Shown here: piece after piece, positions 36,373 to 39,488 of the stretch | How positions within the stretch are numbered: the stretch's first letter is position 1 | How the letters are laid out: each line of letters starts with the position of its first letter | NCBI RefSeq assembly: GCF_001488575.1 | Contig: NZ_LN831302.1 | Span: 2,356,001 to 2,420,000 of the forward strand | DNA length: 64,000 bases | Source: Halobacterium hubeiense | GTDB lineage: Archaea > Halobacteriota > Halobacteria > Halobacteriales > Halobacteriaceae | Reading direction: 5' to 3' | Program-made: the position numbers and the translations under genes | The notes under the pieces: generated by a model | Told to the model about the DNA's origin: nothing | What the model saw: only the letters and a program-made list of their open reading frames with translations | Database searches by the model: none

Positions 36373-38583
36373 GTGGCCGCGAGCAACTCCCCGGACTACA
36401 TGGAGTTCTTCCCGAAGGCGTCGCCGTACGACAACCAGCGGGAGGCGATGGACGGCATCCGCGACGCCCTCGACAGCGGCCGCGACGTCCTGTTCGAGGG
36501 GGCCTGCGGGACCGGGAAGACGCTCGCCGCGCTCGCGCCGGCGCTGTCGCACGCCCGCGAGACCAACAAGACGGTCGTCATCACGACGAACGTCCACCAG
36601 CAGATGCGCCAGTTCGTGCGCGAGGCCCGCGAAATTCACGACGCCGAGCCGCTGCGCGCGGTCGTCTTCAAGGGGAAGGGGTCGATGTGCCACATCGACG
36701 TCGACTACGAGGAGTGTCAGGTCCTCCGCGACAACACCCACGAGCTGGTGGACGCCGAGCGCGACAAACAGCAGTTGGAGGAGCGCCAGCAGGCCCTGTT
36801 GGAGGAGAGCCAGGACGGCGACAGCGAGGCCGCCGAGGCGCGCGAGGCGGTATTAGACGAACTGGAGTCCGTGGAGGACGAACTCGAAGACCTCCAGGAG
36901 GGGAACGTCTGCGAGCGCTACTACGAGAACCTCGTCGGGGACAACGACGACTTCTACGAGTGGCTCTACGACGGCGTCCGCACGCCCGAGGACATCTACG
37001 AGTACGCCGAGGAGGCGGGCCTCTGCGGGTACGAACTCCTGAAGGACGGCATCGAGGGCGTGGACCTCGCGGTCTGCAACTACCACCACCTGCTGGACCC
37101 GGGGATTCGCGCGCAGTTCTTCCGCTGGCTGGGCCGCGACCCCGAGGACGTGGTGGTGGTGTTCGACGAGGCGCACAACGTCGAGGACGCCGCGCGCGAC
37201 CACGCCACGCGGACGCTCACCGAGAACACCCTCGACAGCGCGCTCTCCGAACTGGAGGAAGTCACGGACGACCGCGGCGCGGCCGCAGAGCGCGTGCTGT
37301 CGGCGTTCCGGGACGCGCTCGTGGAGACCTACGAGGGCGCGTTCGGGCCGGGCGGCGACGGTCCCGCGCTCGCGCGCTCGGAAGTGGACGGGAACTGGAC
37401 GGACGTCCCGGTGGCGAACGAGGACAAGCGCGACGACCTCACACTCGAGTTCCTCCAGCAGTACACCGGCCCCGGCATCCGGGAGGACGTCGACGACGCG
37501 CTCGCGCTCGGCGAGTACCTCGACGAGGAGTACGACGAGGCCTACCGGAACGGCGAGACGACCACGCGCCGGGAGTGCTTCGTGCTGGAGGCCGCGGAGT
37601 TCGTGGAGTCGTACGTCGAGGACAGCGGCGAACTCGGCCAGTACCCGACTGCGGCGGTGCGCCGCGACGAGGGGACGAACGACGTCTACGGCCGCGCGGA
37701 ACTGTACACGTGCATCCCGCGGGACGTGACGACGGACCTCTTCGACGCCGTGCACGCCAGCGTCCTGATGAGCGCGACGCTGCGGCCGTTCGACGTCACC
37801 GCGGACGTGCTCGGCCTGGAGGACCCGGAGACGATGGCGTTCGGCCTCCAGTTCCCCGAGGAGCGCCGGCGCACGTTCGCGGTGGACACGGAGCCGCTGT
37901 TCTCCTCGAACCGCGACGACCCCGACACTCAGGAGGAAGTCGCGGGCGCGCTCCGGGACGCCGTGAACTTCACGCCCGGGAACTGCCTGTTTTTCTTCCC
38001 GAGCTACGCGGAAGCCGAGCGCTACCACGACTTACTGGGGGACGTGGACGCCGCGCGCTACCTCGACCAGCCGGGCACGAGCGCCGAGGAGCTCCGGCAG
38101 ACGTTCACGGACGACCGCAACGGCGTCCTGTTCACGTCGCTGTGGGGGACGCTCGCGGAGGGCGTGAGCTTCGACGGCGACGACGCCCGCACCGTCGCGG
38201 TCGTCGGCGTCCCCTACCCCCACTTGGACGCGCGCGCCGAAGCCGTCCAGGACGCCTACGGGCGCGTGTTCGGCGACCGCGACGACCGCCGCAACGAGGA
38301 CGCCGGCTGGCGCTACGCCGTCGAGATTCCCACCGTCCGCAAGACGAGGCAGGCGATGGGCCGCGTCATCCGCTCCCCCGACGACTTCGGCGTGCGGATG
38401 CTCGTGGACCGCCGCTACACCAAGGAGAGCCGCACCGCGATGCGCAAGTACAGCGTCAACCCCGCGTTCCCCGCCGAGGAGCGCCGCGAACTCGTGGACA
38501 TCGACCCCGAGAAGCTCCGCGTGTCGATGCTGAACTTCTACACGGACCTCGACGCCTACGACGGTCAGCCCCCTCGTCCGTAG
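36373..38583 (+). CDS. rad3: XPD/Rad3-type Fe-S DNA helicase
   Basis: A 736-residue SF2 5'-3' DNA helicase. Walker A is EGACGTGKT (about residues 43-51), motif II is VFDEAH. Four cysteines between motifs I and II (GSMCHID, YEECQ, GNVCERYY, AGLCGYE) match the 4Fe-4S cluster of XPD, DinG and relatives. A long charged coiled-coil insertion (about residues 135-175) lies within this region. C-terminal motifs include SATLRPF and RQAMGRVIRSPDD. The role is DNA repair or unwinding; haloarchaea have more than one paralogue, so the exact name is uncertain. Confidence 0.9.
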   Translation: MAASNSPDYMEFFPKASPYDNQREAMDGIRDALDSGRDVLFEGACGTGKTLAALAPALSHARETNKTVVITTNVHQQMRQFVREAREIHDAEPLRAVVFKGKGSMCHIDVDYEECQVLRDNTHELVDAERDKQQLEERQQALLEESQDGDSEAAEAREAVLDELESVEDELEDLQEGNVCERYYENLVGDNDDFYEWLYDGVRTPEDIYEYAEEAGLCGYELLKDGIEGVDLAVCNYHHLLDPGIRAQFFRWLGRDPEDVVVVFDEAHNVEDAARDHATRTLTENTLDSALSELEEVTDDRGAAAERVLSAFRDALVETYEGAFGPGGDGPALARSEVDGNWTDVPVANEDKRDDLTLEFLQQYTGPGIREDVDDALALGEYLDEEYDEAYRNGETTTRRECFVLEAAEFVESYVEDSGELGQYPTAAVRRDEGTNDVYGRAELYTCIPRDVTTDLFDAVHASVLMSATLRPFDVTADVLGLEDPETMAFGLQFPEERRRTFAVDTEPLFSSNRDDPDTQEEVAGALRDAVNFTPGNCLFFFPSYAEAERYHDLLGDVDAARYLDQPGTSAEELRQTFTDDRNGVLFTSLWGTLAEGVSFDGDDARTVAVVGVPYPHLDARAEAVQDAYGRVFGDRDDRRNEDAGWRYAVEIPTVRKTRQAMGRVIRSPDDFGVRMLVDRRYTKESRTAMRKYSVNPAFPAEERRELVDIDPEKLRVSMLNFYTDLDAYDGQPPRP

Positions 38584-38960
38584 GTCTCGTGTCAGCGGCT
38601 AGCGTCTCCAGCTCCTTCGACGACACCTCGAAAGCCCCGGCACGCTCGCGTTCGCTCGCTTGCTGCGCTCCTCGGCCTCCGGCCTGCGGTGCTTGCGGCG
38701 CGAGCGAACAGGTAAACGCGAGCGCGCCGCCCCTTTCAGTCCGCCCGTAGCCGGTTGGTCAGCCGGTAATGGGCGGATTGAAAGGGGCGAGGCTGTAGAC
38801 GAAGGCGCACAAAGCAAGCACCGCAGCGTAGCGAGGAGCGCAGCGAGCGCACCAAGTCTACAGCCTCGGGGCTTTCGGGGTGTCAGAAGCCACTTCGGGG
38901 GAGTACGCTGCTTTCGAAGGATTCACTCCGATACAAAGAGCGGAAGAAAACTCTCGGACG
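38584..38960. other. Gene-free stretch holding a large inverted-repeat element
   Basis: No coding frame is supported. Bases 38622-38884 form the nested inverted-repeat element described separately. The flanks, 38584-38621 and 38885-38960, show no notable features except an A/T-richer patch near 38926-38950. Confidence 0.55.
38622..38884. repeat. Nested inverted-repeat element with alternative pairings
   Basis: Arms, in order: A 38622-38640 pairs with A' 38866-38884 (two mismatches); B 38651-38695 pairs in two blocks with B' 38815-38849; C 38728-38746 pairs with C' 38771-38789 (18 of 19); D 38789-38800 pairs perfectly over 12 bases with D' 38856-38867. B-B' and D-D' cross each other, so they cannot both form in a simple fold. 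It could be a structured RNA, a double-ended terminator or a small non-autonomous element. Confidence 0.75.
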
Positions 38961-39488
38961 TCACGCAGGAAGCGAGAGCGTGTCGACGCGTTCGCCGCGT
39001 TCGGCGTCGTAGAGGTACAGTTCTTCGATGTTCCACGTGACGGGGCCGACCTGTCGGCCGTCGACGTTCTCGACGGCGCGGCGGCCGCGGAAGCCGTCGG
39101 CGTCGCGGGCGAGCGTGACGTGGGGGTCGTAGTCGTCGCCGCCTTCCATCACGGGCACGGGGTCGAAGACCTCGCAGAGGCGCTGGTGGATGCCGTGGAG
39201 GCCGGGGCTCTCGACGGCGAGATAGACAACGGGGCTGGAGCCGTTCGGCGGGTTCTCGAACGTGTCGACTTCGGCGACGCGGGCTTCGACGACGGGCGCG
39301 CCGGCGAGGGCGTCCTGGGCGGTCTGCCACGCGGTGCGGAGCTGCTTGCGGTCGTCGGCGGGGACGCGCTTGACGAGCAGCGTCTGCTCGCGGCGCTCGC
39401 GGATGCGGGCGAACTCCGAGAGCGCCGGGCGGAGGTCCGCGGCGACCTTCTTGACTTCGGCCGGAACCGGAGCGTTCACGCTGTACAC
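38961..39488 (-). CDS. 2'-5' RNA ligase-like / 2H phosphoesterase family protein
   Basis: A 175-residue protein. The start is the GTG at 39488 giving MYSVNAPVPAEVKKVAADL, as in haloarchaeal homologues; the longer open frame upstream is Ser/Cys-rich noise. PHVTLARDA is the C-terminal HxTx motif of the 2H superfamily. The N-terminal motif is degenerate, with no clear HxTx at the equivalent strand (near QTLLVKR), so catalysis may differ from ThpR, the other 2H protein in this window. The function is unknown. Confidence 0.82.
   Translation of the reverse strand: MYSVNAPVPAEVKKVAADLRPALSEFARIRERREQTLLVKRVPADDRKQLRTAWQTAQDALAGAPVVEARVAEVDTFENPPNGSSPVVYLAVESPGLHGIHQRLCEVFDPVPVMEGGDDYDPHVTLARDADGFRGRRAVENVDGRQVGPVTWNIEELYLYDAERGERVDTLSLPA

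Follow-up and report, generated by a model that had tools for sequence, protein, structure and literature searches.

Within the window, the stretch of 64,000 nucleotides of Halobacterium hubeiense DNA analysed here, two convergent genes enclose an element of 263 bases. The Helicase_C_2/DEAD_2 gene on the + strand ends at 38583 and the gene of the 2'-5' RNA ligase superfamily occupies 38961-39488 on the - strand, which bears out the convergent placement given in a preliminary description of the sequence. The inverted repeats of that description are likewise present: the outer pair lies at 38622-38674/38832-38884 and the central hairpin at 38728-38757/38760-38789, and further repeats pair 38780-38800 with 38856-38876 and, at 13 of 13 positions, 38684-38696 with 38814-38826. 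The + strand folds at -182 kcal/mol versus -118.5 ± 4.8 kcal/mol for shuffled sequences (z -13.2), the - strand reaches z -11.4, and on either strand 0 of 200 shuffles were as good. The minimum-energy fold consists of the outer stem and three arms and is near a four-way junction. It had been stated that no coding frame is present; a codon-based gene caller, trained on 23 ORFs of the window and used without a cross-check against annotation, indeed called no gene across the 263 bases, but mechanical open reading frames do extend into the element.

The element is composed of two hairpin units of 116 and 105 nt in inverted orientation, joined via a 32-nt spacer (Table 1). The 13/13 repeat is the pair, termed B-B' in the preliminary description, that crosses another pair and gives rise to two mutually exclusive folds. 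Both folds are true of the sequence, but they have a simpler cause: because the two arms are inverted copies of one unit, a common tip motif occurs in both arms in opposite orientation. Thus, the B-B' complementarity is homology and not a designed switch.

Table 1. Features of the element and its flanks (positions in the window)
Feature	Position	Strand	Basis
Composite core (T box-arm 1-C box-spacer-c box-arm 2-t box, with outer stem)	38622..38884	.	box parsing, fold, repeats
T box, left unit, CTCGAAAGCCCC	38627..38638	+	exact match
Arm 1, long imperfect hairpin with variable outer stem and conserved tip motif	38639..38728	+	fold, unit alignment
C box, left unit, GCCCCTTTCAGTCC	38729..38742	+	exact match
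Quasi-palindromic 32-nt spacer between the units	38743..38774	.	box parsing
c box (inverted C box), right unit	38775..38788	-	one mismatch
Arm 2, likewise a long imperfect hairpin, in the inverted unit on the right	38789..38867	-	fold, unit alignment
t box (inverted T box), right unit	38868..38879	-	one mismatch
Tip motif of arm 1, complementary to 38814-38826	38684..38696	+	repeat search, tip comparison
Tip motif of arm 2 (motif of arm 1 on the opposite strand)	38814..38826	-	repeat search, tip comparison
Left subterminal flank; starts with the helicase stop TAG (38581-38583), at most 1 base from the TAG of GGTAGTGTTCAG in intact-ended relatives	38581..38626	.	spacing; terminal repeat not recognisable by score
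Right subterminal flank; GATTCACTCC at 38920-38929 is the expected right terminal repeat end	38880..38929	.	by eye, suggestive only

A search for homologues had been proposed in the preliminary description, and many were found. In the own genome (3,130,345 bases, 4 contigs), a DNA search gave 27 matches, which were merged by hand into 14 places, and matches occurred in 31 of 59 genomes, the own genome counted. A first set was formed from the window and loci L020-L148 (129 loci fetched by similarity to the window's composite) and parsed by the four boxes; the duplicate loci L060-L063 were dropped from the architecture, gene-context, spacing and gap counts, which left 125 loci and the window. 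This set holds 98 elements with 142 units; 91 elements are from the genus and seven from other genera (L136-L140, L142, L144). Units other than the window's were picked by the T box with at most two mismatches. The order of the parts is strict, namely T box, hairpin arm and C box; in composites, a spacer leads on to the C box in inverted form, another arm and the T box, likewise inverted. With one outer box allowed to be missing, 52 elements are composites and 46 are single units, a proportion to be read with the composite query in mind. The composite spacer measures 29-95 nt (31-34 nt in 46 of 52), and the units measure 28-235 nt, with a mode of 113. A second set from other haloarchaea (L196-L355) yielded 32 composites and 121 single units by the same parsing, as well as 28 exact C boxes with no T box nearby. 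The composite may be an inverted dimer of the single form rather than its ancestor.

Two alignments of units were prepared. Alignment A1 retained 94 of the 142 first-set units (95-123 nt, both tip motifs), or 73 after removal of near-duplicates, two of which (L136, L138) are from outside the genus; alignment A2 retained 136 of the 185 second-set units by length, 117 with both motifs and 92 after removal of near-duplicates. The two appear to have at least one genome (G033) in common. A covariance model, R1, was built from the 73 dereplicated units of A1. With 150 candidates per genome scored, it gave 5 to 57 matches in each of 12 of the 13 genomes of the genus; across the order, where 15 candidates per genome were scored, it matched 192 of 243 Halobacteriales genomes. 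Among the 13 genus genomes, G006 alone had no unit match to R1; in this genome, only about 6 nt lie between the two genes at the window locus. Moreover, the exact 20-base C-box pattern occurred in at least 120 stretches of named genomes, and among the 80 matches listed, 79 bear haloarchaeal names, the exception being 'uncultured archaeon A07HN63'. Among 50,697 phage records, none matched at E 1e-5, and seven plasmid records gave partial matches, none covering 80% of the query.

The stems of the arms turn over while staying self-complementary. A stem census covered 136 of the 142 first-set units, composites without a T or t box having been dropped, and ortholog groups were listed by hand from flank BLAST. 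These 136 units hold 79 distinct 10-nt stems, of which 9 or 10 of 10 positions form Watson-Crick pairs in 113 units and at most 7 in 13. At the window locus, the element is kept in eight species, the own one included, and the ligase is 81-95% identical in the other seven; the stems are mostly different across these species, yet mostly matched within each arm. G009 and G011 have both stems in common, and G012 has one arm reduced to a broken stub. The best stem identity was at least 0.9 in 36 of 87 orthologous pairs versus 14.4% of 3000 sampled other pairs, and the medians of whole-arm identity were 0.63 and 0.58, respectively. The tip motifs were examined in 327 units, of which 250 could be classified, 246 as forward and four as inverted, and 77 had another class or none. 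At a locus that we take to be hisA-hisB, G000 and G009 share largely the same stem with the tip inverted. Furthermore, ten copies are armless, with the T and C boxes joined by CG, and 111 of 185 second-set arms start and finish with CG.

As regards gene context, none of the 98 first-set elements overlaps a called gene; the neighbouring genes are convergent in 15 cases, divergent in 24 and tandem in 59. A bidirectional terminator had been among the earlier suggestions; the distribution of contexts argues that convergent-gene termination is not what places the elements, and putative bidirectional termination is possible as a side effect of the element. The distances to genes are peaked, although many of the counted ends and gaps are orthologous and thus non-independent: in the first set, the distance from T box to stop codon is about 43 nt, with 38 of 55 stop ends falling in the range 36-56 nt, and that to the start codon is about 95 nt, with 56 of 87 in the range 80-106 nt. 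In the second set, the start-side peak recurs at 85-100 nt, and the stop-side distances are broader. Convergent gaps without an element have a median of 6 nt (69 gaps), whereas in those with an element at least 84 nt of DNA lie outside it (15 gaps, of which the window locus supplies about half). This contrast is weaker elsewhere, with medians of 57 versus 194 for tandem and 206 versus 231 for divergent gaps. The contrast in convergent gaps suggests that the flanks of about 43 nt come along with the element. In addition, the roughly 40 nt before the T box show a period-3 composition in the inward frame, at both stop-type and start-type ends and outside called genes (first set); a coding reading of these flanks gave negative mean codon log-odds in all frames. 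CTAG is rare in the window (19 in 64 kb) but concentrated 40-55 nt outside the T box in first-set T-side flanks, where 33 of 35 such sites, orthologs counted, fall at distances of 3n+1 (40, 43, 46, 49, 52, 55). A peak at 40-52 nt had led us to consider CTAG as an insertion target, which was dropped in favour of a terminal-repeat reading.

Comparison of the flanks by ortholog groups from flank BLAST revealed both shared and changed neighbourhoods. At least one flank is common to another copy in 78 of 98 elements, mostly across species, and several ortholog groups have one common flank only. In G003 and G011, the ligase side of the window locus is kept and a different gene lies on the other side, and relatives of that other gene adjoin elements in other species too. 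These one-flank groups indicate that the elements mark gene-order changes. Shared placement of this kind would suit a REP/BIME-like palindrome between genes that the host retains for its structure as DNA, for example as a four-way junction forming a transcription or supercoiling boundary, with mobility secondary or long past. The avoidance of called genes, the peaked spacing and the self-complementarity of changing stems agree with this reading, as do the inward flanks after stop codons, which are T-rich and A-poor; in passages of a study on Haloferax volcanii, a T stretch and one tested hairpin ended transcription (PMC7237163). On the other side, the occurrence in all three gene contexts and the broader gene spacing in other genera do not fit easily. 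Presence is also patchy: the element is absent at the presumed hisA-hisB locus in G002, G004 and G006 and at a presumably RNase Z-like locus in G007. In addition, some relatives bear transposon ends and target duplications. We hold this reading to be tentative, and the less probable one. A putative host role as a boundary or terminator is plausible.

Covariation, a test named in the preliminary description, proved very strong. In A1, double changes occurred in 22 of 28 pairs, 96.0% of cells pair versus 69.7% in shuffles, and 482 double-change cells were counted versus 150 in shuffles and 57-94 in slid controls; the covariation score was 0.600 versus 0.148. By a weaker measure, further pair types numbered 57 versus 52.4, a value equalled or passed by 27 of 500 shuffles. 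In the 92 units of A2, computed without shuffles, 24 of 27 pairs had at least two Watson-Crick types. G-U pairs are nearly absent. They account for 0.98% (A1) and 0.85% (A2) of pairs versus 7.41% in 29 RNase P RNAs of the same order, for 1.20% and 0.77% versus 4.85% in variable pairs, and for 0.038 and 0.031 versus 0.234 relative to minority Watson-Crick cells. The RNase P structure used for this control is a rough one, the RNAalifold consensus on a MAFFT alignment with one locus (G026) skipped. The near absence of G-U in the compensatory changes speaks for pairing maintained as DNA rather than for a regulatory RNA; on these alignments, it points to pairing at the DNA level or to replacement of a whole stem at once.

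A structured non-coding RNA or RNA switch, as put forward in the preliminary description, would account for a fold that is very stable on both strands, for the strong covariation and for the conserved unpaired tip motifs with their nearly uniform orientation. The lack of G-U is not the covariation of an RNA, orthologous copies at one locus carry the tip in opposite orientations, armless copies exist, and the complementarity that had suggested a switch is explained by the inverted paralogous units. An Rfam search of the element returned four matches at E up to 1, none near the gathering score. Given the G-U test and the tip inversion, we rejected this as the main reading and consider it very improbable.

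In other haloarchaea, relatives of the element carry transposon ends. We selected 32 elements for GTGTTCAG-like ends on both sides with at most one mismatch. Their left consensus is GGTAGTGTTCAGATAAG (17 bases) and their right consensus is GGCGGTGTTCAGATAnG; only the eight central bases were selected for, and the nine other bases of the left consensus were not part of the selection. The left end lies 48 nt from the box in 27 of the 32; this distance outside the GAAAGCCCC box is the usual one in relatives with ends, and composites have 50 nt. Flanks match at six or more of 8 positions in 9 of 32 elements (over 2000 shuffles, the null mean was 0.58 and the maximum 4), and among the lengths compared, 8 gives the highest flank identity (0.473 versus 0.23-0.39 at other lengths). 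Of the 121 second-set single units, 38 score at least 12 bits for the left terminal end versus 0 after shuffling. The link between an end and the GAAAGCCCC box was found in 18 of 243 genomes versus 2 with a reversed control pattern; among these 18, ten show GTGTTCAGAT, spread over four families, and about eight look like chance.

The same 17-base consensus also forms one end of the DNA that surrounds an annotated IS6-like ISH29-family transposase CDS on pNRC200, where the other end is its near inverse and an 8-bp duplication is present. Composites with such ends on both sides, in the order T-arm-C-spacer-c-arm-t, were found three times, at L427 (348 bp), L429 (449 bp) and L433 (387 bp), all in one 63%-complete genome, G043; at L427, an 8-bp repeat shifted by a single base is visible by eye. 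End-bearing relatives measure 121-449 bp and are thus by length too short for a full transposase.

In the first set, a terminal repeat was recognisable by score at 0 of 142 T-side ends (135 in the genus, seven in other genera), the window copy included, and inspection of the sequence around the window copy showed no 8-bp duplication. With softer scoring, the first set had a weak average signal, with z 4.4 at 33-47 nt and z 4.1 at 40-54 nt, but a control window at 70-84 nt also reached z 2.9, and on the C side there was no signal at the expected distance. When 30 composites of other genera were scored, the 28 with ordinary spacers reached at most an isolated one-sided 13.5 (L329), and the two that scored high are pairs of neighbouring elements. 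The missing recognisable ends in the first set and in ordinary composites, those of G043 excepted, are the main gap in the argument for a transposon. TAG is the stop codon in 24 of 38 cases at the T-box distance versus 188 of 455 overall (p 0.01, with orthologs non-independent), and CTAG and TAG peak at the stop distance of about 43 nt, as expected had a GGTAG end once lain there.

Read against the G043 composites, the window core with its flanks of about 45 nt is the same kind of object with its ends decayed. We consider it likely that the window copy is the old, immobile core of a transposase-free miniature inverted-repeat transposable element (MITE) of the IS6/ISH29 type, in composite form, the ends of which once lay about 45 nt outside. 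The small mobile element of the preliminary description was thus the best supported of its three suggestions, but the repeats at 38622 and 38884 are not the transposon ends; element boundaries at these two positions were rejected because relatives have their ends 45-50 nt beyond them. The intact form would be about 350 bp long and would run from an ISH29-like terminal repeat through about 45-50 nt of subterminal DNA, T box, arm and C box to a palindromic spacer, followed by the same parts in reverse. An IS6-type transposase supplied in trans would insert it via the terminal repeats and generate the 8-bp duplication. In Halobacterium, the terminal repeats would then decay and copies would mostly be inherited in place, while the hairpin arms might keep turning over by exchange, tip inversion and loss, self-complementary as DNA throughout. 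The gene caller's result agrees with this reading, no transposase gene having been called in the element. Against it, five genomes with 12 to 45 unit matches each (G001, G004, G007, G010, G012) have no PF13610 match, and G006, without unit matches, has three. Additionally, the shared placement and the retained pairing suggest selection by the host, something that a dead transposon would not require. Mobilisation as a REP-type element by an IS200/IS605-like Y1 (HUH) transposase acting on the hairpins, for which the conserved foot boxes and an outline likeness to REP/RAYT systems might speak, was rejected as hardly credible: Y1_Tnp (PF01797) is missing in six of the 13 genus genomes (G002, G004, G005, G007, G008, G012), all of which carry unit matches (G007 has 45), and occurs in G006, a genome without any such match, and the terminal repeats and 8-bp duplications of the relatives fit an IS6-type mechanism.

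A bolder reading of the arms, which we think rather unlikely, is that they are exchangeable DNA-structure cassettes in themselves, with insertion, inversion and loss taking place precisely between T and C boxes; a process acting on the DNA would keep them self-complementary, and haloarchaea would use them as four-way-junction boundaries at gene borders. If so, a dead transposon would have become a rapidly evolving chromosomal element conserved in structure only.

Several known systems share traits with this family. The BIME, REP, ERIC and BOX elements of bacteria are intergenic and modular and consist of paired inverted palindromes, as here, whereas the present family has no Y1/RAYT link and its relatives carry IS6-type ends. 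Integron attC sites have conserved terminal boxes around a hairpin in which the sequence varies and the pairing is kept; the resemblance is limited to boxes and hairpin pairing. The ISH29-type element of pNRC200 from Halobacterium salinarum shares the 17-base end and the 8-bp duplication but encodes a transposase. IS6-family MITEs, one of them haloarchaeal by name, are already known: ISfinder lists MITEBth2 and MITEHarch3 (PMC6807381), and two IS6 MITEs of 227 and 336 bp are given elsewhere (PMC7986276). They are transposase-free and IS6-type by listing, and IS6 members make 8-bp target repeats. One of the two lengths, 336 bp, is near that of the 348-bp composite, a comparison by name and length only; the passages on these MITEs mention no hairpin architecture. 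In Haloquadratum walsbyi, according to excerpts of one report (PMC3119063), SMR-A resembles our elements in its length of about 110 bp, inverted ends, high copy number and insertion inside palindromes, and PATEs in having palindromes near their ends. Unlike the relatives described here, with their ISH29-like ends and 8-bp duplications, SMRs are given there as lacking target duplications and matching no transposon, and PATEs as lacking terminal inverted repeats and being related to IS605.

Among the open-access literature matches listed, no title or abstract start describes the family, which is no proof of absence. The two-hairpin architecture, the stem turnover, the armless and tip-inverted forms and the order-wide spread are apparently new. 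An abundant and apparently little-described class of haloarchaeal intergenic DNA is hereby named and tied to a transposon family. It provides hundreds of natural hairpins that retain their pairing while the sequence changes and G-U is sharply lacking, and it raises a testable general question, namely whether long palindromes are kept by selection on DNA structure or by repair that copies one arm from the other. Lying at several gene-order changes and near stops and promoters, the elements matter for annotation and for haloarchaeal genome rearrangement.

Further observations concern variant arms, plasmids and inserts. A second arm class, in which CATATC...GATAG replaces the usual tip motif, occurs in 14 of 142 first-set units (L020, L021, L036, L043, L045, L059, L098, L099, L103, L105, L108, L112, L124, L133) and in 3 of 185 second-set units. 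L417 and L418 lie on plasmids of Halorientalis and Haloglomus with the same IS4 - IS6 - IclR arrangement and identical protein accessions, hinting at recent transfer. At L443 (G176), the left arm is missing and two right terminal repeats stand in tandem; the stretch between them recurs after the second repeat. Finally, a second small palindromic insert (GCGAACGC..GCGTTCGC..CTTCCG) adjoins the C box in L023, L059, L026, L027, L134, L147, L080 and L124. Repeated GGACTGA flanks it in L023, and repeated GGACTG in L059, which suggests that the elements receive insertions of small hairpins.
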